Below, in pieces: positions 388 through 24,620 of a DNA stretch of 35,821 nucleotides. Source of the stretch: Chlorobiaceae bacterium (GTDB lineage: Bacteria > Bacteroidota > Chlorobiia > Chlorobiales > Chlorobiaceae); the NCBI GenBank assembly GCA_013334525.1, contig JAAXXK010000027.1, positions 1 through 35,821 of the forward strand. Direction: 5' to 3'. Positions within the stretch are counted from its first letter, which is position 1. Each line of letters begins with the position of its first letter. The notes below the pieces were generated by a model. The model was not told where the DNA came from and searched no databases. It saw only the letters and a program-made list of their open reading frames with translations. Both the position numbers and the translations under genes were made by a program.

Positions 388-1323
388 TCAGAAATTGATT
401 CGTTCTGATTCAAAAACCCGTGGTCTTGCAAGTACCTGTGTATAGATGGCACCGACATACTCGCCGAGAATTCCTATAAAAAACAGAAGCACACCGAAAA
501 GAAAGAAATTTCCGATCAGCATAGGAGCAATTCCAGCCTGAAATGTGTTCCAGAATATCAACTTGCCCACAAGAAACCCGAGTCCGGCAAGAACGCTCAG
601 GAACGACAATATAAAACCGAAAAATGTCGCGATACGCAATGGCACCTTGGAGTTGCTGATAATTCCCAATATGCCCATGTCATACAGCGTATAAAAGTTG
701 TTTTTGGTGATTCCCCTCTCTCTCCTCGGTTGCGAGTATGGAATTTTCACCACCTTGAAGCCAATCTCGGCTATGATTCCCCTGAAAAATGGGTAGGGAT
801 CAGGAATGTTCTTCAAAATGTTGATAATTTTCTGGTCATACAGGCCAAAGCCGGTGTAGTTCTGGATGATGTCTACATCCGACAGATGTTTCAACAGCCG
901 GTAATAGAGCTTCCTCACCCTGAACATCAGGGGATACTCACTACTGTCCTTTTTAACCGCCACGACGATGTGGGCTCCAGACTCCCAATGTTTCACCAGT
1001 TCCGGGATCATTTCAGGGGGATCCTGAAGATCGGCAACGATGGAGATCACTGCGTCTCCATCCGCCTGGACCAAACCATGGTATGGAGACCTTATGTGAC
1101 CGTAATTCCTTGAGTTAACAATGACTTTAACATTACTATCAACGGCAGCCAAGCCTTTCAGGATCTTCACGGTATCGTCTTCAGAGGCATTGTCGATGAA
1201 CAGATGCTCATATGAATATCGGGAAAGCGTATCAGCGAAAACCGCCTTCACCCTGTCATAAACGTGCTTGATGTTCTCCTCTTCGTTATAGCATGCGGTT
1301 ACGACTGTTATAGTCTTCTTCAT
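388..1323 (-). CDS. GtrB/DPM1-like family 2 glycosyltransferase with two C-terminal membrane helices
   Basis: A 311-residue polyprenyl-phosphate glycosyltransferase. The GT-A fold starts with TVVTACYNEEENI (residues 6-18), has an FIDNASEDDT nucleotide-binding strand near 42-51 and the metal-binding DLQDPPE at 98-104, the signature of the GtrB/ArnC/dolichol-phosphate-mannose synthase group. Two hydrophobic helices follow at about 230-252 and 268-291, matching membrane-anchored GtrB proteins of 300-320 residues. The family moves a sugar from an activated nucleotide to undecaprenyl phosphate on the cytoplasmic face. A GtrA-like flippase gene lies 96 bases upstream in the operon, the standard partner. 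I infer that the sugar comes from the CDP-sugar genes encoded upstream. There is no clear Shine-Dalgarno sequence. Confidence 0.88.
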   Translation of the reverse strand: MKKTITVVTACYNEEENIKHVYDRVKAVFADTLSRYSYEHLFIDNASEDDTVKILKGLAAVDSNVKVIVNSRNYGHIRSPYHGLVQADGDAVISIVADLQDPPEMIPELVKHWESGAHIVVAVKKDSSEYPLMFRVRKLYYRLLKHLSDVDIIQNYTGFGLYDQKIINILKNIPDPYPFFRGIIAEIGFKVVKIPYSQPRRERGITKNNFYTLYDMGILGIISNSKVPLRIATFFGFILSFLSVLAGLGFLVGKLIFWNTFQAGIAPMLIGNFFLFGVLLFFIGILGEYVGAIYTQVLARPRVFESERINF

Positions 1324-1419: not shown

Positions 1420-1830
1420 TCACTCTGTATGTTCATGCATTTTGAACGTAAACCGCTTATGAAAAATGTAACTGCTTATCACACTCAAAATAACAATTAA
1501 TGCCTGCGAGACGTAAGCGTTAAGTAAAAATACCCTCATAAGGAGAGGCAGCAGAATGATGTTGGCGACATAGGCCCCGCCGTATACCACATAAAATCGC
1601 AGATACTCTTTCAGCACATTACCTTTAGTCCTGAAGACAAAAACCTTGTATCCGATGTATGCGTTGGTTATGGCCAGCACATAACTGATGGTGAGGATAA
1701 GCGTTGAATTGAGGCTATGAGACAACAAAAGGTAGAGAATGGAGAAGGCTCCGTAGCCGAACAGGGTATTCCAACCACCAACGACCAGGTAGATGATTTT
1801 ACTCCTGTGCTCTTTGATCACCGTTTTCAT
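1420..1830 (-). CDS. GtrA-like polyprenyl-phosphate-sugar flippase
   Basis: A 136-residue protein with four predicted membrane helices (about 11-36, 42-60, 78-101, 106-124) and the GtrA hallmarks: YLVVGGWNTLFGY in helix 1, YKVFVFR after helix 2 and HKRFTF at the C-terminus. GtrA proteins flip undecaprenyl-phosphate-linked sugars to the periplasm and normally pair with a GtrB transferase, here the next gene. The ATG at 1830 overlaps the stop of the upstream epimerase gene as TGATG, so translation is probably coupled; a GTG three bases earlier is also in frame. Length and topology are typical of the family. Confidence 0.88.
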   Translation of the reverse strand: MKTVIKEHRSKIIYLVVGGWNTLFGYGAFSILYLLLSHSLNSTLILTISYVLAITNAYIGYKVFVFRTKGNVLKEYLRFYVVYGGAYVANIILLPLLMRVFLLNAYVSQALIVILSVISSYIFHKRFTFKMHEHTE

Positions 1831-2747
1831 CACTGCTGCCCCGTTACCCTGATGTTGTCGATAAAGGCATCCCTACGAACGGCATCAAGGTCCAGGCAGC
1901 CTGAATTCCTGGCGTAGTAATCGTAGAGCCGGGCTATGGCCGTAGAGTGAGGCATGAAATCGACCGGGCACTCTGCCAGGATCCGGCTGTTCGAGGAGGT
2001 GTATTCATGATTCAGGCCCGGGGTATCAACGACAATTTCAGAGGGACGATCCGACACCAGATTGACCAACCCGGCGAGGGTTAGCAGGTCTATGCCTGTA
2101 CCCCTGGTGAGATTGTAAACCCTATGGGCAGGAGTTGACTGCATCGCCCAGACAACCATCCTGACGAGGTCGTCAATGTAGACATAATCGAAATTGACGT
2201 TCTGGCGTATGGTTATGGGAAGGCCGAGAAGGTTCTTGACGATTGCGTTTGAGATGAACTTGTATCGGTAATCTTCATACTTGCCGTAACAGGCGAATAT
2301 CCTGAAATTGACGATGTTCCTGCCGGAGTGAGCGATATAGCGGGAACAAACCGACTTGTAAAAGCCGTAATCGTCCAGCGGAAGCACATTGTCGGCCTCA
2401 TCCTCCCCGACCATGACAATCGGCCTGTGTTTGCCATATTCTGCCCCTGATCCGAAATGAATGATCTTTTCGACCTTGTCGGAGTGCCTGACGACATTGA
2501 AAAACATCCTCAGGTTCGAATGGACCACATCCGTCATCCCAATCGTATCGCGCCCTCCACCCTTGTTGGCGGCATGGATGATGATATCGACCGGATGGCT
2601 GTCGAAATACCGGTCGACAGCATTCTGGTCGAGCAGGTCGAGTTCGCTGCTCGACGGGGCAAGTACCCTGTAGCCGAGCTCATCAAGCTTTTCGGCCAGG
2701 TTCCTGCCGACGAATCCTCTCCCGCCGGTAATAAAAACGGTTTTCAT
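1830..2747 (-). CDS. NAD-dependent epimerase/dehydratase (extended SDR)
   Basis: A 305-residue extended short-chain dehydrogenase. The N-terminal TGGRGFVG (residues 7-14) is the Rossmann dinucleotide motif; HFGSGAEYG near 97-105 supplies the catalytic serine and YGFYK (Y127, K131) the YxxxK pair. The overall pattern resembles WcaG/GDP-fucose-synthase and nucleotide-sugar reductase relatives. The open frame extends 30 codons further upstream, but that part lies inside the aldolase gene; the ATG at 2747 forms a TAATG junction with the aldolase stop and starts directly at the Rossmann strand, so I use it. A keto-sugar reductase or epimerase role at the end of the pathway is likely. In yersiniose synthesis the reductase YerF does such a step, but equivalence is only a guess. 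Confidence 0.85.
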   Translation of the reverse strand: MKTVFITGGRGFVGRNLAEKLDELGYRVLAPSSSELDLLDQNAVDRYFDSHPVDIIIHAANKGGGRDTIGMTDVVHSNLRMFFNVVRHSDKVEKIIHFGSGAEYGKHRPIVMVGEDEADNVLPLDDYGFYKSVCSRYIAHSGRNIVNFRIFACYGKYEDYRYKFISNAIVKNLLGLPITIRQNVNFDYVYIDDLVRMVVWAMQSTPAHRVYNLTRGTGIDLLTLAGLVNLVSDRPSEIVVDTPGLNHEYTSSNSRILAECPVDFMPHSTAIARLYDYYARNSGCLDLDAVRRDAFIDNIRVTGQQ

Positions 2748-3532
2748 TACCGGGCCAACCTCTTTTCCAGCATCTCGATCCGGTGTTCGTCTTCCGACTT
2801 GATCCGGTGGTAATACCTGCGTTTGCTCTTCAGCCACAGCAATTCAAACTCGACCGCCTTGAGAATGGCTGCCTCAGGATCACCAAGAATCGAATCAGCC
2901 CTGAAAACCACCTTACGGGTCTCGAATTTGTCAATCAACTTTTCGGCATGAAGTTTCCTGATGACCTCTATGGAGCCCGTCGAAATCGCCCCGCCAAGCC
3001 CGGTTCCGAGGTTATTTTCGCGCGCTTTCCTTAATATGGTTGTGCAGTACCCAAGGATTTCATCGTTGTCAACCATCTTCCTGTCATAACCCATTGACCC
3101 GACGAAATCGACCCGACCGATCGTCAACCCCTTCAGGAGATTGATCTTGGGCAGGTTCATGATATCGTCAAGATTCCTGAAGGCCGTGATGGTTTCGATA
3201 TTGATCGCAAAATCTATGTCGCGACGGTTGTCCTCCGCCACGAAGGTTTCAATGGCGCCAAGGAACTTCGATACAGCAAAAGCGGTCTCGGCCATAGGCG
3301 CGATAACGCCCTTGACACCAATAGTTATGGCGTTATAAATGTCAGTAACTGCTTCGACTCCGCCTATCTTAAGGATAATGGGCAGTTCAGCTTTGGAGGT
3401 CACATCCTTGAGCCGCATCATCTCTTCTATCCTGCTCCCCTCGGCTTCAAATTCCGCTTTTATCTCAAATACCCCATATACTTCCTTGAGTTCCCTGAGA
3501 ACTGAGAGCATCTGATATTCAACGCTGTTCAT
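2747..3532 (-). CDS. HpcH/HpaI (CitE-like) aldolase family protein
   Basis: A 261-residue TIM-barrel protein of the HpcH/HpaI aldolase/citrate lyase beta superfamily. The metal-site glutamate sits in INIETITAF (E113) and the family signature near the sixth strand is IGRVDFVGSMG (D142, S146). Known members cleave or form carbon-carbon bonds next to a pyruvate or acetyl-CoA enolate with a divalent metal. It follows the cyclase gene with no spacer (TAG then ATG), so the two are probably made together. In a nucleotide-sugar operon this is unusual: the classical CDP-3,6-dideoxyhexose pathway has no aldolase. The substrate cannot be read from the sequence. The C-terminal tail (about 225-261) is rich in K, R and E and may form a helical extension. 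Confidence 0.8.
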   Translation of the reverse strand: MNSVEYQMLSVLRELKEVYGVFEIKAEFEAEGSRIEEMMRLKDVTSKAELPIILKIGGVEAVTDIYNAITIGVKGVIAPMAETAFAVSKFLGAIETFVAEDNRRDIDFAINIETITAFRNLDDIMNLPKINLLKGLTIGRVDFVGSMGYDRKMVDNDEILGYCTTILRKARENNLGTGLGGAISTGSIEVIRKLHAEKLIDKFETRKVVFRADSILGDPEAAILKAVEFELLWLKSKRRYYHRIKSEDEHRIEMLEKRLAR

Positions 3533-4609
3533 CTAGTTTCTCTCCAATGTTTCTATTAATGTTTGTAACGCCTCATTAAATCCGCTCTCTTCAAGATCAT
3601 CAAACTTGCCCAGAACGAAGTCGTTATCCGAAAGCACAATGCTTAACCTGCTTCCAATCCGTTTCTTGTCGTTTTTCATGGCCAACAGGAGCAGATTCTG
3701 ATCGTAATGCCTTTTGTCATATTTAACTGGAAGACAGGATAAAATTATCGCTTTGATTCCTTCAAACACTGTGCGGCTCATCATACCCCGGTTGACCGAA
3801 ACCACCCCGGCAAAAAGGATCCCGATAGAAACAGCGATGCCGTGAGGAATCGCATAATCGGATGAGATTTCGAGAGCATGCCCAAAGCAGTGACCGTAAT
3901 TCAATAGATTTCTCCTGCCAAGATCAAACTCGTCGTTTTCCATGTAGTTGATCTTTACTGCCATGTTCTCCCTGATAACATCGTCAAGCGATTCGTGAAG
4001 CTTCACCTTCTTGATTTTGTTCCCGATATCATGCAGATCGGGCTTTACAAAAGGATTCATGAGCTGGAACTTGATCGTCTCACCGATACCGCTGTAATAG
4101 TCAATCTCCGTAAGGGTTGAAAGAAATGCAGGACAAAGACAGATCATTCCTGGCGGATAAAATGTACCGAGCAGGTTCTTCCTGTTCCGGAAATTCAATG
4201 ATGTCTTACTGCCGATACAACTGTCTGTCTGCGCCAGAAAGGTTGTCGGCACATAAGTCCAGTTAACTCCCCTGTACAGGGTCGAAGCAACGAAGCCGGT
4301 CACGTCCTGCGTAATTCCACCGCCAACAGAAACAAGATTGATGTTCCTTTTAGCGCTTCTGTCGATAAGAGCAGCATATAGTTCAACTACATGTTCAAGA
4401 TCCTTGTTGTCCTCAATGGACTCAAAAGTTATAATATCACCCTCTTCAGCCATGCACTCGATATCTTTGCGATAGATTTCCAAAACATTCGCATCGACGA
4501 CAAGCACCTTGTTAGACAAGGGTTCTATAGCCCGGGCAACACCTTCGATACTATTCTCGAACAGGACTTTGTAGTCTCTGATTTTTGATTTGATAATGAG
4601 TTCGTTCAT
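3533..4609 (-). CDS. Dehydroquinate-synthase-like sugar-phosphate cyclase
   Basis: A 358-residue member of the AroB superfamily. The NAD site is visible as SVGGGITQDVTGF (95-107), followed by VPTTFLAQTDS (120-130) and the SKTSLN strand. The three metal ligands appear as E177 (GIGETIKF), H240 (NYGHCFGHALE) and H256 (IPHGIAV), with the 16-residue spacing between histidines seen in dehydroquinate synthases. Sugar-phosphate cyclases of this fold use NAD+ and a metal to turn a phosphorylated keto-sugar into a carbocycle. Its place between an SDR (ATGA overlap) and an aldolase, inside an O-antigen-type operon, argues against the shikimate-pathway aroB, which I would expect elsewhere in the genome. 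Product type (dehydroquinate-, valiolone- or inosose-like) is unknown. Confidence 0.83.
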   Translation of the reverse strand: MNELIIKSKIRDYKVLFENSIEGVARAIEPLSNKVLVVDANVLEIYRKDIECMAEEGDIITFESIEDNKDLEHVVELYAALIDRSAKRNINLVSVGGGITQDVTGFVASTLYRGVNWTYVPTTFLAQTDSCIGSKTSLNFRNRKNLLGTFYPPGMICLCPAFLSTLTEIDYYSGIGETIKFQLMNPFVKPDLHDIGNKIKKVKLHESLDDVIRENMAVKINYMENDEFDLGRRNLLNYGHCFGHALEISSDYAIPHGIAVSIGILFAGVVSVNRGMMSRTVFEGIKAIILSCLPVKYDKRHYDQNLLLLAMKNDKKRIGSRLSIVLSDNDFVLGKFDDLEESGFNEALQTLIETLERN

Positions 4610-5271
4610 GCCAGAAACCCCCCGTCGACGATGAGCGTCTGACCGGTCATGTATGAATTGTTTTCACTGATCAGAAATGCGATTGATTCCGCGATTTCAG
4701 AGGGTTCTGCGAAACGCTTCAACGGAATCTCTTTCTTGATTATCTCCTGCTCTTCAGGAGTCACATTTCTTTGTGTGAGCGATGTATTCACATATCCCGG
4801 ACAGATAGAATTAACCAAAATATTGAACGGACCAAGCTCCCGGCAAAGTGATTTCGTAACACCGTTCAGTGCAAATTTGGTTGCCGAGTAAAGGGTTCTC
4901 TTCTCCTTGGAACGTACGCCCCAAATAGAACTGACATTGACGATCCGTCCAAACCGCTGCTGCTTCATGTGAGGTACGCACTTCTGGATGATCAACAAGG
5001 GTGCTACAAGGTTGATATTCAACGACGACTGAATGTGTTTGTCGACGATATCTTCTATACATTCCGGGAAATTGATCCCCGCGTTGTTAATCACAATATC
5101 GTAGACCGATGCCTCTGAAAAGTAGGCGTCGATAGACTCCCGGGACTCAAGATCAAGGTCCACCCTTGCTGGCGAGGACACTTCATATCGCGGGTCTCCC
5201 GATAGTCGTTCTACGATCGATTGGCCGATACCACCAGTCCCTCCGGTGACAAGTACTCTCTTTTTATTCAT
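4606..5271 (-). CDS. Classical short-chain dehydrogenase/reductase (SDR)
   Basis: A 221-residue classical SDR. Motifs in order: TGGTGGIG at 9-16 (cofactor), INNAG at 61-65, NVSS at 112-115 with the catalytic serine, YSATK at 128-132 (Y128, K132), CPGYVNT after the active site and the C-terminal GQTLIVDGGF. It overlaps the ThDP enzyme gene by eight bases and the cyclase gene by four (ATGA), so it belongs to the same translational unit. It is slightly shorter than the typical 245-260. A keto-group reduction on the branched or cyclic intermediate is a reasonable guess, for example the acetyl side chain made by the neighbouring ThDP enzyme. It resembles FabG-like enzymes in general, but context speaks against fatty-acid synthesis. 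Confidence 0.85.
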   Translation of the reverse strand: MNKKRVLVTGGTGGIGQSIVERLSGDPRYEVSSPARVDLDLESRESIDAYFSEASVYDIVINNAGINFPECIEDIVDKHIQSSLNINLVAPLLIIQKCVPHMKQQRFGRIVNVSSIWGVRSKEKRTLYSATKFALNGVTKSLCRELGPFNILVNSICPGYVNTSLTQRNVTPEEQEIIKKEIPLKRFAEPSEIAESIAFLISENNSYMTGQTLIVDGGFLA

Positions 5272-7054
5272 TAATAACCTCGACGATCATCTGTTTGTGG
5301 AAAACCTCCCTGTCCAGGAACGGGTACATGTCTTCGAGAGGCTTGGATACGATCCTGCCGTCGGGCTTGACCTCGGAAGAGAGCTTGGGCTCCATTTTCT
5401 CATCCGGGTTAAGCATCACTTCACAGAGCACCGGCCCTTCGGTCGAAAGGACATCCGCGATCCTTTCGGAGAAAGCTGCCTGGTTTTCGATCCTTGTTCC
5501 CCTGAATCCGTAAGCCCCGGCAATCCTGAGCGCATCTGGGCAACTGACGCCGCTTCCGGCGCCGCATCCCACGAAATGGCCCTTGAAAAAGCCTCGCTGG
5601 GTGTTGCGGATCGAAACATATCCTTCGTTGTTCAGCACGAACAGCTTCAACGGCAGTCGGTTGTGAACGATCGTCTGCAGCTCCTGGATGTTCATCTGCA
5701 TGCTGCCATCGCCAGTAACGCAGATTACCTGGCGATGCGGAGCGGCATAACAGGCGCCTATGGCGGCCGGAAGGTCGTAACCCATCGAAGCGCAACCGGA
5801 ATTCACTACGACATTCTGCGACGGTTTCAACCGCAGGCTCTGGTATGAGGAGACGCAGGCCGTCCCGTTGCCGAAGACGAAAACCGCGTCATCAGGGGCG
5901 ACATCGGAGAGCACGTCGAAAAAATTATAGGAATCAACCCTGCATTCAACCGCCTGCCTCTCGGGGACGATCGTCGGGAATGTCGCCCGGTACTGCCTGC
6001 AACGGTTCATCCAGTCAGGGCGCCCCTTCCATCCATTCATGACCGCCGAGAGCTCCCTGATGAAGGCACCGGCATCGGAACGGACCGGCAGGTCAATGTC
6101 GAGGGTGCGCTTCCTGAGTTCGTTCGCGTCGATGTCGACGACGATCTTCACTGCTTCGCGCCCGAAATACTCCCAGTTGTAGCTTACGGCACGAATGTTG
6201 AGCCTGGCGCCGATGGCCAGGACAAGGTCACTGTTCTGGACGGCGAAATTGCCTGCACGATGACCAACCGTACCAAAGCGACCGGCGTAAAAAGGATCGC
6301 CCTCCTTGACGATGTCATATCTGGCAAATGTCCCGAGCACGGGGATACTAAGCATCGAAGCAAGCTTCCTGAACTCATCGACCGCCCCGGAGAGCACGAT
6401 GCCGTTGCCTGCGACGATGACCGGTCGCTCGGCTTTGTTCAGCGCAACCAGCACCTCCTCCATCCGGAAATCATACTCCGGTTCCGGAGGCGTCTGAAAA
6501 CCTTCGAGCGTATCAGGATCGATCTGTGAACCCTGAATATCGAGCGGAACATCGATCCAGACCGGTCCGGGGCGGCCGTGCTTCGCCTCATACACCGCCT
6601 TTTCCAGATGGTACCTGACCCGCTGTTTATCGGTGACCATCACCGCATATTTCGTGATCGGCCTTACGATGTCGACAATGTTGATCTCCTGGTCGCCGAG
6701 CTGCCTGAGGCTAAGCTCGGGTTGCGACGAGATCGTGGTTTCAAACTTGACCTGCCCGGAAACCACCATCATGGGAATCGAATCCACCCATGCACCCATC
6801 ACGCCAGTAATGGCATTGGTTCCTCCAGGTCCGGTGGTTACGTAGGCTACCCCGATTTTGTTCGAAACCCTCGCATACCCCTCTGCCGCAACGGCGCACG
6901 CCTGCTCGTGGTGGTTGCATACATATTCGAGCTGTTCGTTTCGGCCGAGCGCGTCGATAAGGTGCATGTTGCCGCCGCCGGAAACCATGAAAACCGTTTT
7001 GGCTGTCTGCGGATGCTCAGCGATAAACCGGGCGATATAATCGGCTACCCTCAT
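5264..7054 (-). CDS. ThDP-dependent acetolactate-synthase-like enzyme (possibly YerE-type)
   Basis: A 596-residue thiamine-diphosphate enzyme with the three-domain acetolactate synthase layout. The N-terminal PYR domain carries the catalytic glutamate E50 (CNHHEQACAVAAEGYAR); the central domain spans roughly 190-340; the C-terminal PP domain has GDGS (448-451) and NN at 475-476, the metal/ThDP motif. It overlaps rfbH by four bases (ATGA). In Yersinia, YerE is such an enzyme: it adds an acetyl unit from pyruvate to C4 of CDP-4-keto-3,6-dideoxyglucose, giving the branch of yersiniose A. Direct linkage to rfbF/G/H here suggests a similar carboligation. No regulatory small subunit (IlvN) is present, which argues against valine/isoleucine synthesis. 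An IolD-like hydrolase acting on a cyclic diketone is an alternative, given the cyclase downstream. Confidence 0.85.
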   Translation of the reverse strand: MRVADYIARFIAEHPQTAKTVFMVSGGGNMHLIDALGRNEQLEYVCNHHEQACAVAAEGYARVSNKIGVAYVTTGPGGTNAITGVMGAWVDSIPMMVVSGQVKFETTISSQPELSLRQLGDQEINIVDIVRPITKYAVMVTDKQRVRYHLEKAVYEAKHGRPGPVWIDVPLDIQGSQIDPDTLEGFQTPPEPEYDFRMEEVLVALNKAERPVIVAGNGIVLSGAVDEFRKLASMLSIPVLGTFARYDIVKEGDPFYAGRFGTVGHRAGNFAVQNSDLVLAIGARLNIRAVSYNWEYFGREAVKIVVDIDANELRKRTLDIDLPVRSDAGAFIRELSAVMNGWKGRPDWMNRCRQYRATFPTIVPERQAVECRVDSYNFFDVLSDVAPDDAVFVFGNGTACVSSYQSLRLKPSQNVVVNSGCASMGYDLPAAIGACYAAPHRQVICVTGDGSMQMNIQELQTIVHNRLPLKLFVLNNEGYVSIRNTQRGFFKGHFVGCGAGSGVSCPDALRIAGAYGFRGTRIENQAAFSERIADVLSTEGPVLCEVMLNPDEKMEPKLSSEVKPDGRIVSKPLEDMYPFLDREVFHKQMIVEVINE

Positions 7055-8391
7055 GCCCTGCTCCTTATGAACCCGGTGATGGTCGAAGCCATGAAGTCGA
7101 TGGCATCATCGCCCATTCCGGGATAGACTCCGAGCCAGAAGCTGTCGTTCATGATCTTGTCGGTATTGGTTAACGCACCGGCGACGCGGTAATCGACGCC
7201 TTCTACCAGGGCCTGGAACATCGGGTGGCGGGTCATGTTGCCGGCGAACAGGTTCCTTGTCTGGATCCTGCTGTTTTCGAGATGCTCGACGATATCGTTT
7301 CTGCGGAACGGCGCTCCGTCCCTGATCGTCATCAGGAAACCAAACCAGCTGGGGTCGGATCCCGGGGTCGCCTCGGGCAGGGCAAGAAACTCACCGACAC
7401 CTTCCAGGGCGCTCCTGAGCCGACGGAAATTCTGCTTCCGCTTTTCAACGAAAGCCGGAAATTTCTCCAGCTGCGCCAGGCCTATGGCGGCCTGCATATC
7501 GGTCGCCTTGAGATTGAACCCGAAGTGGCTGTAGACGTATTTGTGGTCGTATCCGAGCGGCAGGGTGCCGAACTGCTGGCTGAACCGGTTGCCGCAGGTG
7601 TTGTCGCGCCCGCTGTCGCACCAGCAGTCGCGTCCCCAGTCACGGATCGAAAGCATGATGCGTTTAAGGAGATGGCTGCTTGTGTAGACTGCGCCGCCTT
7701 CGCCCATGGTCATGTGGTGCGGGGGATAGAAACTGCTGGTACCTATGTCACCCCATGTGCCGGTCAGCTTTCCCTCGAACGTGCTGCCCAGCGCGTCACA
7801 GTTATCTTCTATCAACCAGAGGTTGTGCCTGTCACAAAAAGACCTGACGGTGCGGAGGTCGAAAGGATTGCCGAGGGTGTGGGCAACCATGACCGCCCTG
7901 CTCTTCGGGCTGAGGGCCTGCTCCAGCAAACCGGCATCGATGTTGGCCGTCTTCAGCTCGACATCAATGAAAACCGGCACAGCTCCATACTGTATCGCGG
8001 GGGCAACCGTGGTCGGAAATCCGGCTGCAACCGTAATGACTTCGTCTCCTCTCCTGACCTGCCGTTCACCAAGCAACGGGGAGGTCAGCGAAAAGAAAGC
8101 GAGCAGGTTGGCCGAGCTTCCGCTGTTGACCAGGAATGACCATGGCACCCCGAGGTAAGCGGCCAGCTCCTGCTCAAACTTCCGCGAATAGTCTCCGTAG
8201 GTCAACCAGAAATCGAGCGAGGAATCGACGAGGTTGACCATCTCCTTTTCGTCGAACACCCTTCCCGCGTAAGCCACCCGGGACTGCCCTGGTACGAACT
8301 CACGTTCCTGCTCTGGCTTGTGGAGCAGTTTATAGTATTCTTTTGTCTTTTCCAGTATTTCCCGCTTAAGGTCGTCAACTTTTCCGCTCAT
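7051..8391 (-). CDS. rfbH: CDP-4-keto-6-deoxyglucose 3-dehydratase (E1, iron-sulfur PMP enzyme)
   Basis: A 446-residue DegT/DnrJ-fold dehydratase. Two features separate it from ordinary sugar aminotransferases: the Schiff-base lysine is replaced by histidine (SFYPPHHMTMGEGG, H225-H226), and four cysteines C198, C256, C258 and C266 show exactly the C-x57-C-x-C-x7-C spacing of the [2Fe-2S] site of Yersinia E1. The enzyme removes the C3 hydroxyl of CDP-4-keto-6-deoxyglucose using PMP and electrons passed through the cluster. GAGG four bases before the ATG is a good ribosome site. The usual reductase partner (E3, RfbI/AscD) is not encoded anywhere in the window. It lies between the metallo-beta-lactamase-fold gene (34-base gap) and the ThDP enzyme (overlap). 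Confidence 0.93.
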   Translation of the reverse strand: MSGKVDDLKREILEKTKEYYKLLHKPEQEREFVPGQSRVAYAGRVFDEKEMVNLVDSSLDFWLTYGDYSRKFEQELAAYLGVPWSFLVNSGSSANLLAFFSLTSPLLGERQVRRGDEVITVAAGFPTTVAPAIQYGAVPVFIDVELKTANIDAGLLEQALSPKSRAVMVAHTLGNPFDLRTVRSFCDRHNLWLIEDNCDALGSTFEGKLTGTWGDIGTSSFYPPHHMTMGEGGAVYTSSHLLKRIMLSIRDWGRDCWCDSGRDNTCGNRFSQQFGTLPLGYDHKYVYSHFGFNLKATDMQAAIGLAQLEKFPAFVEKRKQNFRRLRSALEGVGEFLALPEATPGSDPSWFGFLMTIRDGAPFRRNDIVEHLENSRIQTRNLFAGNMTRHPMFQALVEGVDYRVAGALTNTDKIMNDSFWLGVYPGMGDDAIDFMASTITGFIRSRA

Positions 8392-8425
8392 CAGTCCTCG
8401 TCGCTCCCTTGTTTGTCTTGTTGTT

Positions 8426-9172
8426 TCATATTTCCATCACCTGGTTGTCCATGACTGCTGTCGTATCCTGAAAAATAACCTTCGCGGCCGACTGCGCCGC
8501 AATACGACGTTCTGCATCCAGATACCTCGACGCGTCAAAGTGCACCAGGGCAAGTTGCTTTGCACCGGCATCGCGAGCCAGGCGGGCCGCGCTTTCCGGG
8601 TTCAGGTGCGGCCAGTGGGCACTCTGTTCGCCGGACCTGAACGCGCACTCGGCGATCAGCAGGTCGGCCGATTCTGCAAGCTGCACAGCGCTGTCACAAT
8701 AGCCGGTGTCCGGGCAATAAACGATGGTTTTACCCTCGATGGACAGGCGGAATCCGATTGTCGGGACGGAATGCATCATCGGGCCGGTCTGCACCGAATA
8801 ACCGTCGAGTTCGATTGTTCCACCGTCAAGTTCCACAATGTCGACCGGGTATGGCAGGGCTGAAAACGGCAACGAGAAGGGCGGGGCGATGATCGACTGC
8901 AGATGCGACTTGTCGCCCTTGCGGCAAAAAATGGTCAGCCCTTTTGCGAAATCGAATTTATTGAGCAGATGCAGGCCTATGATATGGTCGAGGTGCATAT
9001 GGCTCAGGAACATATGGACCGGCTTTCCATTGCCGATATGTTTGTCGACCTTGTGAAGCCCGCTTCCGGCATCAAGGATAATCGAAGCCCTTCCGGTATC
9101 GATCAGTATGCACACGGTATTTCCTGCAGGAGTGTCATACCAACCGTTCGTACCGAGAAAAACCACTTTCAT
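8426..9172 (-). CDS. RNase Z-like metallo-beta-lactamase-fold hydrolase
   Basis: A 248-residue metallo-beta-lactamase-fold protein. All seven usual metal ligands can be placed: H58, H60, D62, H63 (SHMHLDH), H134 (MMHSVP), D155 (CPDTGYC) and H211 (LVHFD), so it should be an active two-metal hydrolase. The order of motifs fits the RNase Z/PhnP branch (phosphodiester or cyclic phosphate hydrolysis), but the RNase Z exosite arm is not evident. It sits between rfbG (15-base gap) and rfbH (34-base gap), an unusual place because no hydrolase is known in the CDP-dideoxysugar pathway. A role in trimming a pathway intermediate, such as a phosphodiester of the nucleotide sugar, is possible but speculative. 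Confidence 0.8.
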   Translation of the reverse strand: MKVVFLGTNGWYDTPAGNTVCILIDTGRASIILDAGSGLHKVDKHIGNGKPVHMFLSHMHLDHIIGLHLLNKFDFAKGLTIFCRKGDKSHLQSIIAPPFSLPFSALPYPVDIVELDGGTIELDGYSVQTGPMMHSVPTIGFRLSIEGKTIVYCPDTGYCDSAVQLAESADLLIAECAFRSGEQSAHWPHLNPESAARLARDAGAKQLALVHFDASRYLDAERRIAAQSAAKVIFQDTTAVMDNQVMEI

Positions 9173-9187
9173 TCGCGTTTCTCCGAC

Positions 9188-10258
9188 TTAACGTTCGCTG
9201 ATGTAATCGCCGATCTGTCTCAGGCACAATTCATGAACCCTGTCGCATTTATACTCCCTGTACCAATTGACGGTTTCCAGGACGGCCCTCTCGATATCCC
9301 AGAGAGGAGACCATCCGAGAAGCGCCCTGGCCTTGGCGATATCGAGCTTGAGCAAATGGGCTTCGTGAACTGCGCCGGGCAAAGAACGATCTTCCCATGC
9401 ACCTGCCCCCCAGGCCTTCACGATGGAGTCAACGAGGGTGCCGACGTTGAGAAAGCTCGAATCTTCAGGGCCGAAATTCCATGCCCCGGCGTAGGGCGAC
9501 GGGTCGTTGAACATCCTGGCGGCCAGGAGAAGGTAACCGGAAAGCGGCTCCAGGACGTGCTGCCACGGACGTACGGCACTCGGGCTCCTGACAGGAACGG
9601 AGTGACCCCGTTCGAGATGCCTGATGCAGTCCGGCACGATACGGTCGACCTGCCAGTCTCCTCCCCCGAACACATTGCCTGCCCTGGCTGAAGCAAGGCT
9701 CTTGCCATGACGTGCAAAATCCCGGGGATCGAAAAATGATCTCCTGTAGGCCTCGGTCACCATTTCGCTGCATGCCTTGCTCGAACTGTATGGGTCGTGG
9801 CCGCCGAGCCTGTCGTTTTCACGATACCCCCAGACCCACTCCCGGTTTTCGTAGCACTTGTCGGTGGTCACGTTGACGATTACGCGTACTGAATCGCTAA
9901 GTCGGCAACACTCAAGAAGGTTGACTGTACCAAGAACATTAACATCGTAGGTTTCCCTGGGGGTTTTGTAAGATTCCCTGACAAGAGGCTGCGCGGCGAG
10001 GTGGAAAACGATCTCCGGCCTGAACGATTCAAAGCATCTACCCAGCCGCTGGAAGTCCCTTATGTCCCCGATTTCGTGGCGCATCCGGGCTCCGATGCCG
10101 GAGAGCACAAAATTGTCGTTCGAGGTCAACGGTTCAAGAGCATAACCGGCAACATCGGCACCAAGCATGTTGAGCCATATGGAGAGCCAGGATCCCTTGA
10201 ATCCGGTATGACCGGTGACAAGAACCTTTTTTCCTGCCCAGAAATCGTTGTTCAGCAT
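9188..10258 (-). CDS. rfbG: CDP-glucose 4,6-dehydratase
   Basis: A 356-residue extended SDR with the full-length pattern of RfbG/AscB. The NAD site is TGHTGFKG (15-22), typical of CDP-glucose dehydratases; TTDKCY at 131-136 supplies the threonine and the D-K pair used in water elimination, and YSSSK at 157-161 (Y157, K161) is the SDR catalytic pair. GNVFGGGDW and VRPWQHVLE further on are conserved in this subfamily. It oxidises C4 and removes the C6 hydroxyl of CDP-glucose, giving CDP-4-keto-6-deoxyglucose for RfbH. It is the second gene of the operon, 15 bases after rfbF. The length equals the family norm. Confidence 0.93.
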   Translation of the reverse strand: MLNNDFWAGKKVLVTGHTGFKGSWLSIWLNMLGADVAGYALEPLTSNDNFVLSGIGARMRHEIGDIRDFQRLGRCFESFRPEIVFHLAAQPLVRESYKTPRETYDVNVLGTVNLLECCRLSDSVRVIVNVTTDKCYENREWVWGYRENDRLGGHDPYSSSKACSEMVTEAYRRSFFDPRDFARHGKSLASARAGNVFGGGDWQVDRIVPDCIRHLERGHSVPVRSPSAVRPWQHVLEPLSGYLLLAARMFNDPSPYAGAWNFGPEDSSFLNVGTLVDSIVKAWGAGAWEDRSLPGAVHEAHLLKLDIAKARALLGWSPLWDIERAVLETVNWYREYKCDRVHELCLRQIGDYISER

Positions 10259-10273
10259 GAGCGCATTTATGGT

Positions 10274-11044
10274 TTACCAGACTTTCCACGGGGCATTGCC
10301 CGATTTCCATAGTTCCTCGAGGTAGAGCTTGTCCCTGAGCGTATCCATCGGTTGCCAGAAGCCGTGATGGGAATATGCGGCAAGGCTGCCTTCGCGGGCA
10401 AGGCGTTCAAGCGGCTCCCGCTCCCATGAGGTATGATCATCCGGAATATAGTCGATCACTTCAGGAGAAAGCACAAAAAAGCCGCCGTTGATCATCGCTC
10501 CGTCACCTTTAGGCTTTTCCCTGAAAGTCCTTACTTTGTGCTCAACTATTTCGAGCATACCAAACCGGCCGGCCGGCATGGTCGCCATCAGGGTCGCCTT
10601 GACCCCCTGAGAGCGGTGGAACGCCAGCAACTTGCTGATGTCGACATCGCTCACTCCATCCCCATAGGTAAAAAAGATCTCCTTTTCGTCCTTCACGTAA
10701 TCCTTCACGCGCTTCAGGCGGCCGCCGGTCATGGTCTCTTCGCCGGTATCCACCAGGGTCACCTTCCAGGGCTCGGCCTTGCGGTGGTGCACCTCCATAA
10801 GGTTGCGCTCCATGTCGAAGGTCACATCCGACATGTGCAGGAAATAGTTGGCGAAATACTCCTTGATCAGGTACCCCTTGTACCCGCAGCAGATGATGAA
10901 TTCGTTGACGTTGTAGGCCGAGTAGATTTTAAGGATATGCCAGAGAATCGGCATGCCGCCGATTTCGATCATGGGCTTCGGTTTGAGGTGGGTCTCTTCC
11001 GAAATGCGGGTCCCAAGCCCTCCGGCAAGAATTACGGCTTTCAT
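10274..11044 (-). CDS. rfbF: Glucose-1-phosphate cytidylyltransferase
   Basis: A 256-residue nucleotidyltransferase, matching the 257 typical of RfbF/AscA. The start is [13 protein letters not shown] with the signature [17 protein letters not shown] (about 9-25), and [10 protein letters not shown] carries the metal-binding aspartate. It makes CDP-glucose from CTP and glucose-1-phosphate, committing carbon to the CDP-deoxysugar route. The open frame continues 37 codons upstream, but the ATG at 11044 is chosen because the family motif begins there and because the predicted promoter would put the transcript start downstream of the longer alternative. It is the first gene of the operon. No strong Shine-Dalgarno sequence is seen. 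Confidence 0.94.
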
Positions 11045-11098
11045 AGTATGGTGGTCAGGCGAAAGAAAAGGAAACGGTCGTTGCGGAATAAAACTTTT

Positions 11099-11127
11099 AA
11101 TATACGTCACTGCTGAAACAGAGCCAA
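11099..11127 (-). promoter_or_regulatory. Sigma-70-like promoter for the CDP-sugar operon
   Basis: On the minus strand TTGGCT (11127-11122) and TATATT (11104-11099) are separated by exactly 17 bases. Transcription would start near 11092, leaving a leader of about 48 bases before rfbF at 11044. The surrounding 205-base gap to the preceding gene is the only gap of useful size upstream of the operon. The match is by eye; the -35 box is imperfect, the -10 box is five of six. Confidence 0.55.
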
Positions 11128-11249
11128 TAATTACCCGGGACAAATGACAGATCATATAACACGGGGATAGTTTACCATATCACCGCATAATCAGGGCACC
11201 AGACGCTCCTTACTGATGGCTCGGTGGCCACTGCCGGAACAAGCCCGGG

Positions 11250-12719
11250 CTAATCCGTCACATTTCCGGTCGAAGTGATCGACCTGGCGGACAAAAGATG
11301 AGGGTCGCCTTGAATAAACAGAAGATAACAGCAAAGACCGGAAGCGATGCCGACCAAAATGGAACCTGCGAAAAATATGATCCGGGCAAAAGTGGTGTGT
11401 CGTTTTCCCGCCCTGGAACCATCAGCCTCAACCAGATCCGACGGCAATAACGATTGGACAGCCTTTTGATCAAGCAATGATTTCAACCGTTTCGGATCGG
11501 GATATGGAATTCTTGCGTTCTTTTCATTGAGGACACTCTCATCGTGAGTCGCAAGATAGGTCCGGACTCTGCTCTCGCTTTCAACTCCCCTGGCTCCGGT
11601 TTCACTGAGGTCACGGGCAATGGAGGAAAGAAAAATACCGATACCTATAAAGAGGACCATCACCCAGGCAGAGAGTGGTTTGATACTCCATTTCAGGACT
11701 GGGTCCCGCATGTTCACCAGAAAAGCTGCAAGATTGGCCAGGATCCCGACAGCATACAAGTCCAGGTAACGTGAAGATAGCACCTGCCCATTCCCCCTGC
11801 CGTAGGCGATAACCGACATCTGGCCGAACAGCCATACACAGAGCGCAAAAAGGAACCAGGTCGGATCGTCGGCCTTCGGCTTTCGTTGCAGTTGCCTGAA
11901 CATAAAAACAAGGGAAGGAATATAGAACACCACTCCCCCCGTCATCTTGAACAATGCGAAGGCAAAATCAAGGATGGATCGGCTCTTGTATGGTGCGTGC
12001 CCCGGAATGGATGGCGTGAAATGAACGGCCACGCCTGTCATGACCGCCAGCACCAGGATCATGATGATCGTGTTGCGGTTTCTCTGGACACCCAACATCC
12101 ATTGCAAACCGAGAAACCCGACACCCGCGGCCAACGTCAACGCCCCGGAAGCAAAGGAAAGACAGGCCAAAAGCCCGCTGACCACCACGAGAAGATCCCA
12201 TAAACCTCCTCCTGAGCCCCTGCGCGAGATTGCGTACAGGAACAAAAAACTGAAAAGCAGGATGAAATAAAGTGACGAGTTGTTCATCAGAATGTTTTCA
12301 ACCGCCAAAGGGACAGAGAAGAGCAGGGTGGCGAAAATGACGGTCGCCATGCGGGTTCGCTCTTCGGGAATCATTTTGAGCAGGATATGAAGAAGCAGGA
12401 GCAGGGTGCCGGCATAAAGAAGCGCGTTGACGGCTATTTCGAGCATGGGGTTCAGTACCCTGCCGTTCAAAAGGAAAAGGGAAAGCGACAAGACCCTTCC
12501 GGTAAACACCCGATGCTCATTGTGGGGAGCGATGAGTTCCTGCCACTGAAGCGTCCCATCAATCCATGGACGGAGCAGGCGGTCGATTATCGCATCCCAC
12601 TGATCCCAATATGGAGTTATGTTGCCGTATGATGCCACGATCATGAACCGTGTCCCGATCACAAGGGCAGCAAATACCGCATAAAGGAGAAAAACGGGAG
12701 TGCGTACCTCTTTTGTCAT
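11250..12719 (-). CDS. Polytopic membrane protein, GT-C glycosyltransferase-like
   Basis: A 489-residue protein with about ten hydrophobic segments (first at 9-29, then a run from about 88 to 240 and from 255 to 375, last at 447-468). After the first helix comes a loop with acidic and aromatic residues (NITPYWDQWDAI) and PHNEHRVFTGR, a layout typical of GT-C transferases that use lipid-linked sugars outside the cytoplasmic membrane; the first loop aspartates would be the candidate catalytic residues. Between about 385 and 440 is a hydrophilic domain. I do not recognise a named family. Size and topology are like GtrC-type O-antigen modifying transferases, which would complete the GtrA/GtrB genes of the same strand downstream. 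It lies 205 bases upstream of rfbF and may be separately transcribed. Confidence 0.65.
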   Translation of the reverse strand: MTKEVRTPVFLLYAVFAALVIGTRFMIVASYGNITPYWDQWDAIIDRLLRPWIDGTLQWQELIAPHNEHRVFTGRVLSLSLFLLNGRVLNPMLEIAVNALLYAGTLLLLLHILLKMIPEERTRMATVIFATLLFSVPLAVENILMNNSSLYFILLFSFLFLYAISRRGSGGGLWDLLVVVSGLLACLSFASGALTLAAGVGFLGLQWMLGVQRNRNTIIMILVLAVMTGVAVHFTPSIPGHAPYKSRSILDFAFALFKMTGGVVFYIPSLVFMFRQLQRKPKADDPTWFLFALCVWLFGQMSVIAYGRGNGQVLSSRYLDLYAVGILANLAAFLVNMRDPVLKWSIKPLSAWVMVLFIGIGIFLSSIARDLSETGARGVESESRVRTYLATHDESVLNEKNARIPYPDPKRLKSLLDQKAVQSLLPSDLVEADGSRAGKRHTTFARIIFFAGSILVGIASGLCCYLLFIQGDPHLLSARSITSTGNVTD

Positions 12720-12813
12720 GTAAAACTTTGCTTTTGATGGGAAAATGAGCCTGGTTGTGACCTGCCCATAACCGGATACGGCCCGGCAAAACAGTTACCA
12801 TATCCATGTAATC

Positions 12814-13746
12814 TCAGCACCGCTTCCAGCGGTCGTGAAGCCAGAACCACTCTTCCGGCCACCGAAGGATGTACTCTTCGAGAACTTTGGTGTAACGGGA
12901 AGCCAGTGTGGCGATATCCTCTTTATTGAAGGTAAGGTCCGAAGTGTCGATCTCCTGAGTCTCGATCCTGTATCTTCCATCATCGCCATTTCTGCACATG
13001 CCGACAAAAAGCGGTACCCTTGCCTTGAGCGCAAAAAAGGCCGCACCGTGAAACATCGTGGCGCGCCTGCCGAGGAACTGCCCGAAATACCTCTCGTTCG
13101 AATCGGACTGGTCGCCGAGAATTGCAAGGATGCCTCCAGCTTCCAGCAACCGCAACCCCTCCCTGAGCGCATATTCGTCATAGACGATGCTATTTCCCCG
13201 CATGGTCCGGTACTCGTTCATCTTGAGATCAAGCCTGTTGTTGCGGAGACGCTTGACGATTATGGTCATCGGATGGACCATGAGGCCAAAAGCCAGGGCC
13301 ATGAGCTCCCAGTTGCCATAATGGGCAGAAACCAACACCGCTCCAGTCTGGCCGTTGCGGGTTCCGCGAAGGTATACCCCCGGGTCGAGATCGACCAGAT
13401 CGACGATGTCGCCACGGTTCCTGATGAGCGGAATACGAAGCACTTCAAGTAGAGTAGAGGCTACATTCCGATAGACGCCCCTGGCAATCCTGCGGATTTC
13501 GGTTTGCGATTTTTCGGGAAACGTTATACCGAGATTCCTGTGAACAAGCTCACGCCTGAGCCCCAGGACCCGGTAAATGAAATCTCCGAGCAGGCAGGCG
13601 ACCTGCTTTGCATGATCTCGACCAAGCCGCCGGATCATGACCCCAAGCAGGTTTACCGCATGGAACGTCAATGCCATGGAAGCTGCCCTGATCCTGCGCC
13701 GACTCCTGTTTCTCAATGCTTCCACTAACGAACTCATAGCAGACAC
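12814..13746 (-). CDS. Lysophospholipid/lipid A acyltransferase (LpxL/HtrB type)
   Basis: A 310-residue member of the LpxL/HtrB acyltransferase family. The catalytic H-x4-E motif is AHYGNWE (H142, E147). Further family blocks are RNLGITFP near 70-77, GGILAILGDQSD, ATMFHGAAFFALKARVPLF and the C-terminal PEEWFWLHDRWK, which closes most LpxL-type proteins (PEQYxWxHRRF/WK). These enzymes add a secondary acyl chain to lipid A or related lipids at the inner membrane; a basic N-terminal region with a hydrophobic stretch (about 20-40) probably anchors it. Length fits the family (about 290-320). It is 94 bases upstream of the GT-C-like gene. Which acyl position or lipid is used is unknown. Confidence 0.88.
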   Translation of the reverse strand: MSAMSSLVEALRNRSRRRIRAASMALTFHAVNLLGVMIRRLGRDHAKQVACLLGDFIYRVLGLRRELVHRNLGITFPEKSQTEIRRIARGVYRNVASTLLEVLRIPLIRNRGDIVDLVDLDPGVYLRGTRNGQTGAVLVSAHYGNWELMALAFGLMVHPMTIIVKRLRNNRLDLKMNEYRTMRGNSIVYDEYALREGLRLLEAGGILAILGDQSDSNERYFGQFLGRRATMFHGAAFFALKARVPLFVGMCRNGDDGRYRIETQEIDTSDLTFNKEDIATLASRYTKVLEEYILRWPEEWFWLHDRWKRC

Positions 13747-16129: not shown

Positions 16130-16633
16130 ATGCCACCCAAACCGCTCACCCACGCAGATGCCCTGCTGAAAATTCGAAGCTGGCAGACCAGCGGAGAAAA
16201 GGTCGTATTCACGAACGGTTGTTTCGATATCCTCCATGCCGGCCACGTCCGTTATCTGGCGGCCGCACGCGGGCTCGGCGACAGGTTGGTGGTCGGGCTG
16301 AATACCGATGCTTCAGTCAGGAGGATCAAGGGGCCGAACAGGCCGGTATCATGCGAAGAAGACCGTGCGGAGGTGCTCTCGGCGCTGGCCGTGGTCGATG
16401 CCGTGACGCTGTTCGACGACGATACACCTGAAAAACTGATCGGTATGCTCCTGCCGGATATCCTGGTCAAAGGGGCCGACTGGCCTGTTGACAAAATCGC
16501 CGGCGCATCGGCCGTACTGGAGCACGGCGGATCGGTTCTGACCGTCCCCCTGCTGGAAGGACGATCTACTACCGGAATCATCGAAACCATCGTTCATCTT
16601 TACTGCTCACAGGCAACAGGTGGAAATAGTTAA
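16130..16633 (+). CDS. rfaE2: D-glycero-beta-D-manno-heptose 1-phosphate adenylyltransferase
   Basis: A 167-residue cytidylyltransferase-fold protein equal to the C-terminal domain of the E. coli HldE fusion. [17 protein letters not shown] (27-43) contains the nucleotide-binding HAGH (36-39); [13 protein letters not shown] and a closing GRSTTGIIE are further conserved blocks. It transfers AMP to heptose-1-phosphate to give ADP-heptose for the lipopolysaccharide core. The kinase domain is absent, so it is the split form, and no heptokinase gene is in the window. AAGGA four bases before the ATG is a good ribosome site. Its end overlaps the start of the next gene by 14 bases. Confidence 0.93.
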
Positions 16634-21119: not shown

Positions 21120-21175
21120 GGTTCCGATACCTGTATTTTTCATACATTTAATGATAATCCTTTATCCGTTTTACC

Positions 21176-22393: not shown

Positions 22394-22412
22394 CAGAAAC
22401 CCCTGAACTGGA

Positions 22413-23036: not shown

Positions 23037-23079
23037 CCGGGAAAACGAATTAACAGGCTATACGAGGAAAAGGACAGGG

Positions 23080-24609: not shown

Positions 24610-24620
24610 CACTGCCGATC

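Follow-up and report, generated by a model that had tools for sequence, protein, structure and literature searches.

A row of 11 genes on the minus strand of a 35,821-base contig from a Chlorobiaceae bacterium (GCA_013334525.1, JAAXXK010000027.1; the whole contig is called the window below) joins rfbF, rfbG and rfbH, the genes for a CDP-deoxysugar, to a YerE-like thiamine diphosphate (ThDP) carboligase, a short-chain dehydrogenase/reductase (SDR), a sugar-phosphate cyclase of the 3-dehydroquinate synthase (DHQS) superfamily and a pyruvate aldolase. We judge it somewhat more probable than a coin toss that this operon makes a CDP-activated 3,6-dideoxyhexose bearing a carbocyclic branch on C4. 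The proposal starts from what is observed: the identities of the genes, their co-occurrence, the mutual exclusion and repeated exchange of two modules, and the catalytic residues kept in the enzymes. A preliminary description of this DNA had suggested a branched CDP-sugar with a carbocycle formed by the aldolase and the cyclase. Comparison across genomes supports this idea, as the aldolase accompanies the carboligase in 28 of 28 loci and the cyclase with its SDR swaps with a haloacid dehalogenase (HAD) family gene; the substrates and the product are predictions.

A peptide-pattern scan with the aldolase across a genome collection of 84,980 species, in which the strict patterns make the yield a lower bound, retrieved at least 22 loci (L040-L061), and an alignment search of the phylum of L044 found further ones. 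The core set of 28 loci consists of the window, L033, 21 of the 22 scan loci, L074 and L088-L091; L060 was left out because its contig ends within the aldolase. Aldolase searches recover all 27 core loci other than the window. A ThDP homologue is present in all 28, which span many phyla, the weak cases being L048 (where the contig edge leaves only a 56-residue end) and L058 (31% identity). Homologues of rfbH, rfbG and rfbF are found in 22, 21 and 20 of the 28 core loci, respectively, several contigs being short. SDR and cyclase together with aldolase and ThDP enzyme occur in 10 of the 28.

Each core locus contains exactly one of two modules, never both or neither: the SDR and cyclase (10 loci) or a HAD-family gene (18 loci, one of the genes degraded). 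The SDR itself is found in 10/10 core cyclase loci and 0/18 core HAD loci. The module adjoins the aldolase, the cyclase within 63 bp in 10/10 and the HAD gene within 76 bp in 17/18. Such a perfect split of 28 loci would have a probability of 1 in 13 million if the loci were independent; since they are related, the trees weigh more than this figure. The ThDP tree (32 rows, 27 core and 5 extended, one of the latter unlabelled) requires at least 8 module changes, at least 6 of them by well-supported branches, with 7-8 in the bootstrap trees (5-95%). The aldolase tree (33 rows) requires at least 6 changes, at least 4 by well-supported branches.

Three cases illustrate the exchange. L033 (cyclase) and L043 (HAD) have ThDP enzymes that share 86.1% identity and are sisters at 99/96 support, and that of L043 is 79.2% identical to the window's. 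L043, from Chlorobaculum, has nine genes in window order with the HAD gene at the position of the window's SDR and cyclase, and an additional 666-aa open reading frame (ORF) between the genes for GtrA and the family 2 glycosyltransferase (GT2). In Campylobacterota, L044 and L090 carry the cyclase and L047, L088, L089 and L091 the HAD gene; among the tandem-aldolase loci of Omnitrophota, L119 and L120 carry the cyclase and L118 the HAD gene. The HAD proteins in this slot belong to two subfamilies, IIA and a phosphoglycolate-phosphatase-like IA. Their identity was checked in 16 of the 18 core loci (7 by NCBIfam and 9 more, as well as L118, by Pfam), and the label of L088 comes from tblastn alone (59% to the L047 HAD). 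HAD-IIA genes above the cut-off are found in none of five cyclase-type Chlorobiaceae genomes (the window genome, G063, G071, G213 and G291), and each of the HAD-type genomes G090 and G317 (L043; probably identical with G288) has one, in the locus. These results suggest that the two modules are alternative finishes of one assembly line.

The operon cyclase falls below the aroB equivalog cut-off (251 versus 305 bits). A second PF01761 gene on contig C24 of the host genome scores higher in that family (149.6 versus 116.8 bits for the operon cyclase), and the idea that the latter is the only aroB of the genome, which the preliminary description had named as a possible refutation, was rejected on this ground. 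In a quick tree with SH-aLRT support and no bootstrap, the 13 operon cyclases, 10 of them from core and 3 from extended loci, fall with three TIGR04425 proteins of other clusters on one side of a branch, apart from 23 AroB-like rows (SH-aLRT 98). TIGR04425, which NCBI names merely as a putative cyclizing phospholyase, is matched above its cut-off in 4 of 19 scan-locus genomes, exactly those with a cyclase in the locus; the cyclases of L042 (G291; 398.7 bits) and L115 (299.4 bits) fall short of the cut-off of 400. The 15 catalytic-site columns examined, covering metal ligands and the lysines, arginines and asparagines of the substrate site, are all identical in 13/13 operon cyclases and 23/23 AroB-like rows; the columns were mapped through the A. 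nidulans DHQS numbering. In G710 (L115), and likewise in G322 (L048), the operon cyclase is the sole match at an E-value below 1e-30, and an aroB role is conceivable for it in these two genomes. The SDR lies beside the cyclase in 13/13 operon loci, and we propose that it reduces the ketone remaining in the ring after cyclisation.

An SDR paired with a TIGR04425 protein was also seen in a different, surface-glycan-like cluster (L034:9267-11088, L035:9471-11301 and L037:9404-11210), where the fetched 19.9 kb gave no ThDP match. The neighbours scanned in L034 include SIS, Gfo/Idh, 2-hydroxyacid dehydrogenase, CTP_transf_3, DUF386 and PF04199 genes, and those around L035 and L037 resemble them by eye. 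The lysine at position 180 of the window cyclase is histidine in all three of these cyclases. Possibly, this pair makes another carbocyclic building block.

The closest solved structure to the carboligase is 8rph (E=2.7e-139), which is JanthE (PMC12188165), compared with E=9.2e-76 for the best acetolactate synthase. The window enzyme, the only one so scored, reaches 351 bits against the biosynthetic acetolactate synthase model, whose cut-off is 538. An acetolactate synthase was rejected on this score and the much nearer match to JanthE, and the structure-match comparison places the window enzyme in the YerE-like carboligase class. JanthE, its nearest solved relative, is a YerE-like enzyme that joins 2-keto acids to ketones, with tertiary alcohols as products; its ThDP motif has CDG where the window enzyme has the usual GDG, and its physiological substrates are described as not identified (PMC12188165). 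For the vast majority of YerE-like enzymes, the sugar structure is stated to be not known (PMC12247030). For the window carboligase, we predict that it decarboxylates a 2-keto acid and attaches the remaining chain to the 4-keto sugar. Searches for alignment columns separating cyclase-type from HAD-type loci found none in either the ThDP enzyme or the aldolase; shuffled labels likewise gave none, so that this test is powerless.

The AlphaFold model of the aldolase (pLDDT 94) best matches HpaI with pyruvate in the PDB (4b5w, E=1.1e-8, TM about 0.6). The best solved relative by sequence has only E=0.0062, marking a divergent HpcH/HpaI subfamily. Class II pyruvate aldolases of this family use a glutamate and an aspartate as metal ligands; E113 and D142, invariant in 23/23 aligned rows, probably bind the metal. 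Against the 2-keto-3-deoxy-L-rhamnonate aldolase equivalog, the best one, the protein scores 24.6 bits with a cut-off of 441, and a known catabolic enzyme, which the preliminary description had also considered as a refutation, was rejected accordingly. The aldolase is predicted to condense pyruvate with a phosphorylated aldehyde.

From these genes we infer the substrates, the order of the steps, the ring size and the product as follows. RfbF, RfbG and RfbH would supply CDP-4-keto-3,6-dideoxyglucose (step 1). The aldolase would couple pyruvate with an aldose phosphate, a tetrose 4-phosphate being the simplest choice, to form a phosphorylated 2-keto-3-deoxy acid similar to 3-deoxy-D-arabino-heptulosonate 7-phosphate (DAHP) (step 2). 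The carboligase would decarboxylate this acid and place the acyl chain on C4 of the keto sugar, the product being a tertiary alcohol with a C1' ketone, a C2' methylene and a C6' phosphate (step 3). If the aldehyde phosphate has four carbons, the branch would be hydroxylated at C3'-C5' and show the DAHP pattern with the sugar in place of the carboxylate. The cyclase could then handle the chain like DAHP, by transient NAD oxidation and phosphate elimination, ending with an attack of C6' on the C1' ketone that closes a six-membered ring (step 4). The SDR would reduce the remaining ring ketone (step 5), and GT2 would move the sugar to polyprenyl phosphate, GtrA flip it and the sugar pass into a surface glycan (step 6). 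In the relatives, a HAD phosphatase would take the place of steps 4 and 5 and leave an open hydroxylated chain resembling that of caryophyllose.

Two considerations shape this scheme. DHQS-type cyclases eliminate phosphate, and the HAD subfamilies found here are phosphatases. As phosphate removal is common to both modules and they replace each other, both would act on the same phosphorylated product of the aldolase and the carboligase. Furthermore, ring closure uses up the ketone that the carboligase needs, and the carboligase is thus best placed between the aldolase and the cyclase. Its reaction converts R-CO-COOH to R-CO-sugar with retention of the carbonyl, which would then be available for DHQS-type ring closure. 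The order given in the preliminary description, the aldolase followed directly by the cyclase as in the shikimate pathway, should be changed to this extent. We give an even chance to the full scheme, in which a shikimate-like pair of aldolase and cyclase acts around a YerE-like carboligase and ring closure by the DHQS-type cyclase takes place on a nucleotide-sugar branch. This would yield a 3,6-dideoxyhexose bonded carbon to carbon to a polyhydroxycyclohexane (with a tetrose phosphate as the aldehyde, C12H22O8 of 294.131 Da), and one swappable module, either the phosphatase or the cyclase with its SDR, would set the open or ring form in many phyla. The pathway as such is a variant of the YerE-type branched-sugar pathway, and the carbocyclic product is the bold part of the proposal. 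A literature search, made on titles and the starts of abstracts with subscription papers missing, found no precedent for the ring-closure step, no paper assigning a cyclase to a YerE-type pathway and no product already assigned to this block in another organism.

Several observations weigh against a ring closed on the sugar-bound branch. All the DHQS site residues examined are kept in the cyclase, and its sequence gives no sign of a bulkier substrate. To our knowledge, sugar-phosphate cyclases act on free sugar phosphates and not on the branch of a nucleotide sugar, and the literature search on Chlorobium glycans found no sugar analysis. The module exchange has its own weak points. Genes of the HAD family are common and promiscuous, and the queries for them were drawn from loci devoid of the cyclase. 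The HAD labels of L056, L058 and L059 are self-matches backed by NCBIfam, the score in L058 being 23.0 bits versus 23.3 for HAD-IA. The HAD gene of L054 is degraded. That of L058 lies 1.8 kb from the aldolase, and the ThDP enzyme of this locus has only 31% identity and forms a very long branch on the tree. The labels on the ThDP tree are not clustered beyond chance, as 64 and 79 of 500 shuffles were equally low. The cyclase-type genomes G318, G552 and G320 have HAD-IIA genes elsewhere, which makes the exclusion a property of the locus and not always of the genome. Outside the core set, L122 has the ThDP enzyme and the aldolase with neither module, and L116 has the aldolase, SDR, cyclase and rfbFGH with no ThDP gene found in 19.9 kb.

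Instead, the free aldolase product might be the substrate of the cyclase ahead of any carboligation. The resulting carbocyclic acid, similar to dehydroquinate or quinate, would be joined to the branched sugar in some other way, and the carboligase would take pyruvate, as it does for yersiniose. This would mirror the first two steps of the shikimate pathway directly, and it fits the DHQS site residues kept, the SDR-cyclase pairs in the L034, L035 and L037 stretches and the gene content of L116. We nevertheless regard it as unlikely: the donors of the carboligase would have to differ by locus type, in spite of at least 8 switches on the ThDP tree and a cross-type pair of 86.1% identity, the aldolase shares its locus with the carboligase in all 28 core loci, and none of the 11 operon genes was recognised as one for acyl activation or acyl transfer. 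Alternatively, both modules might act on the same phosphorylated branched ketone with an aldehyde other than tetrose phosphate, leading to another ring size or position such as a cyclopentane or another cyclitol. The sequences do not fix the aldehyde, the aldolase being divergent (best solved relative at E=0.0062), but DHQS-like chemistry needs a six-carbon chain, and we consider such a product quite improbable. The branch of caryophyllose also has six carbons (PMC7821131, PMC5706390). An ordinary yersiniose-type operon next to an unrelated pathway containing the cyclase and the aldolase is highly improbable: although YerE alone adds the pyruvate-derived branch in yersiniose A, so that RfbFGH and a YerE-like enzyme could suffice (PMC12247030), and L116 is one candidate for an aldolase and cyclase without a ThDP enzyme, the co-occurrence and mutual exclusion over many phyla, the 8 or more changes of label that the ThDP tree requires and the overlapping reading frames contradict it.

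The window belongs to a genome of 2.55 Mb in 79 contigs that is 93.9% complete. The 11 genes (Table 1), in the order rfbF, rfbG, metallo-beta-lactamase-fold gene, rfbH, ThDP carboligase, SDR, cyclase, aldolase, epimerase, GtrA and GT2, all have frames without internal stops, and RfbF, RfbG and RfbH clear their equivalog cut-offs. The starts, stops and overlaps agree with the tightly packed operon described before: rfbH and the carboligase gene overlap by 4 bases, the carboligase and SDR genes by 8 and the SDR and cyclase genes by 4; the TAG of the cyclase is followed at once by the ATG of the aldolase, and the aldolase and epimerase genes have one base in common. The row continues past the epimerase into GtrA and, after a 96-base gap, GT2 (388-1833 in all). 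The genes listed in the preliminary description are all present, but it left out the metallo-beta-lactamase-fold gene between rfbG and rfbH, and its span of 2747-11044 has to be extended to take in the epimerase. Promoter and terminator scans of the operon gave matches no more numerous than in shuffled sequence, and the single transcription unit thus rests on gene spacing and conserved synteny.

Table 1. Genes of the operon, with positions in the window and the supporting match
Gene product	Position	Strand	Match
rfbF, glucose-1-phosphate cytidylyltransferase	10274..11044	-	TIGR02623 459 bits, cut-off 300
rfbG, CDP-glucose 4,6-dehydratase	9188..10258	-	TIGR02622 489 bits, cut-off 278
Metallo-beta-lactamase-fold hydrolase	8426..9172	-	PF12706 84.8 bits
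rfbH, CDP-4-keto-6-deoxyglucose 3-dehydrase	7051..8391	-	PRK15407 722 bits, cut-off 423
YerE-like ThDP carboligase	5264..7054	-	PDB 8rph (JanthE) E=2.7e-139; HHEQA and GDG...NN motifs
SDR	4606..5271	-	adh_short_C2 150 bits (Pfam)
Sugar-phosphate cyclase, DHQS superfamily	3533..4609	-	TIGR04425 425 bits, cut-off 400
HpcH/HpaI-like class II pyruvate aldolase, distinct subfamily	2747..3532	-	PF03328 33 bits, cut-off 25
NAD-dependent epimerase/dehydratase family, probable tailoring enzyme	1830..2747	-	PF01370 119 bits, ORF scanned from upstream start
GtrA-like membrane protein	1420..1833	-	PF04138 65.6 bits
GT2 glycosyltransferase, PgfS/ArnC-like	388..1323	-	PF00535 83 bits; best NCBIfam PgfS 178 bits, below cut-off 500

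Homologues of the metallo-hydrolase occur in 7 of the 28 core loci (one, in L040, is a 90-residue match) and those of the epimerase in 20. Both genes are present in both locus types, and either was rejected as the factor that chooses between the open and ring forms. The NCBIfam matches of the metallo-hydrolase, including RNase Z, PhnP and cyclic-nucleotide phosphodiesterase models, are all under their cut-offs. Upstream of the operon, the window carries a lipid A acyltransferase-family gene (12814-13746) and, at 16130-26423, a cytidylyltransferase-like gene, a 1499-aa ORF, and DFP/flavoprotein, uracil-DNA glycosylase, DnaB and PEP-utilising enzyme genes. Among the core loci, a GDP-mannose-mannosyl-hydrolase-like NUDIX gene and a radical SAM gene were each seen in 6 of 28, with several HAD-type loci carrying such additions (for example L050:6906-7400 and 10808-12998), and methyltransferase-like genes in 12 of 28, of both types.

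By contig title, the scan loci come from Chlorobiaceae, Chlorobaculum, Sulfuricurvum, Campylobacter, Lentisphaerae, Patescibacteria groups, Omnitrophota, Elusimicrobia, SAR86 and other Gammaproteobacteria, Geobacteraceae, Desulfocapsa and others. The contigs of L048, L049, L051 and L053 are titled Gracilibacteria, Patescibacteria group, Nealsonbacteria and Parcubacteria, which is odd for a sugar of the lipopolysaccharide type, and misbinning is conceivable. In whole-genome alignment searches, whose counts include both the query loci and distant aldolases lacking a ThDP match, the aldolase was matched in 7 of 86 Chlorobiaceae genomes and 13 of 298 in Campylobacterota, the phylum of L044 (5 close and 8 distant). 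The class of L054 gave 4 matching genomes of 369, Omnitrophota, the phylum of L050, 6 of 237 and the phylum of L055 2 of 247. The distant aldolases (34-39%) of L092-L099 and L121 had no ThDP match in the fetched stretches. The four of these nine loci that were scanned (L092, L094, L097 and L121) showed PF02348 cytidylyltransferase-like genes nearby, resembling a route to ulosonic acids of the 3-deoxy-D-manno-octulosonate (KDO) type. HAD-like genes suspected from their sequence start beside the aldolases of L094 and L121 had no Pfam match and were not used.

L116, L117 and L122 have aldolases 40-42% identical to the window's. In L117, a ThDP homologue of 31% identity lies on the other strand and the HAD gene 5 kb off; near the genes of L122, one ORF looks transposase-like by eye. 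The Omnitrophota loci have tandem aldolases after the ThDP gene (L118:9356-10967, L119:8864-10492 and L120:9113-10708), 39-40% and 47-50% identical to the window's. On plasmids, the aldolase search returned only proteins 42.7% identical in two Novosphingobium humi records and 34.7% in Ilyobacter, and the ThDP search (limit 1e-80) returned no close enzyme, the best being 33.2%. By tblastn, the Novosphingobium stretch has rfbF and rfbG beside the aldolase and gave no ThDP, cyclase or HAD match.

If the proposal is true, the operon represents a route to sugar-carbocycle hybrids with a carbon-carbon bond and extends sugar-phosphate cyclases from free sugar phosphates to substrates bound to a nucleotide sugar. 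Both TIGR04425 and part of the YerE-like enzymes gain a concrete prediction from it. The natural exchange of phosphatase and cyclase is a ready experiment, in which a like aldolase and carboligase meet two finishing modules with two predicted products.

Among known systems, 3-dehydroquinate synthase and other sugar-phosphate cyclases share with the operon cyclase the superfamily and the same 15 site columns; the operon cyclase differs from AroB in its separate clade, its score under the aroB cut-off and its SDR partner in 13/13 operon loci. In the KDO pathway, which has an aldolase-type synthase and a cytidylyltransferase, a phosphorylated 2-keto-3-deoxy acid is dephosphorylated by a HAD enzyme; the keto acid is activated there as a CMP-sugar, whereas here it would be used by the carboligase. 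We know of no aldolase, cyclase or HAD modules in the yersiniose A pathway. Erwiniose is an open-chain branched sugar, as caryophyllose is, and one ring of bradyrhizose is a carbocycle.

The genes for bradyrhizose, a bicyclic O-antigen monosaccharide, are called unknown apart from an 11-gene candidate cluster, and the main text of that paper has no occurrence of dehydroquinate, aldolase or acetolactate (PMC4743980). In yersiniose A formation, YerE adds a pyruvate-derived branch to CDP-3,6-dideoxy-4-keto-glucose (PMC12247030). The predicted acceptor is the same here and the carboligase is YerE-like too, but YerE takes pyruvate, whereas in our loci an aldolase stands with the carboligase in 28/28 core cases. 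Longer hydroxylated 2-keto acids are used by the YerE-like enzymes of caryophyllose (Mycobacterium marinum MMAR_2332) and erwiniose (ErwE), the latter preferring 4-hydroxy-2-oxo acids (PMC12247030). Caryophyllose is 3,6-dideoxy-4-C-(1,3,4,5-tetrahydroxyhexyl)-hexose, open-chain by its name, and its chain has a CH2 beside C1', as expected of a pyruvate aldol product (PMC5706390). The text consulted mentions no cyclase for it or for erwiniose. The claim of the preliminary description that an aldolase has no role in routes to branched CDP-sugars was probably too strong in view of the donors of ErwE (PMC12247030) and the 2'-deoxy chain of caryophyllose (PMC5706390). Together, these donors and this skeleton are a precedent for the predicted steps up to the branched ketone: caryophyllose has the skeleton that steps 1-3 would give, lacking the ring and the terminal oxygen (PMC5706390).

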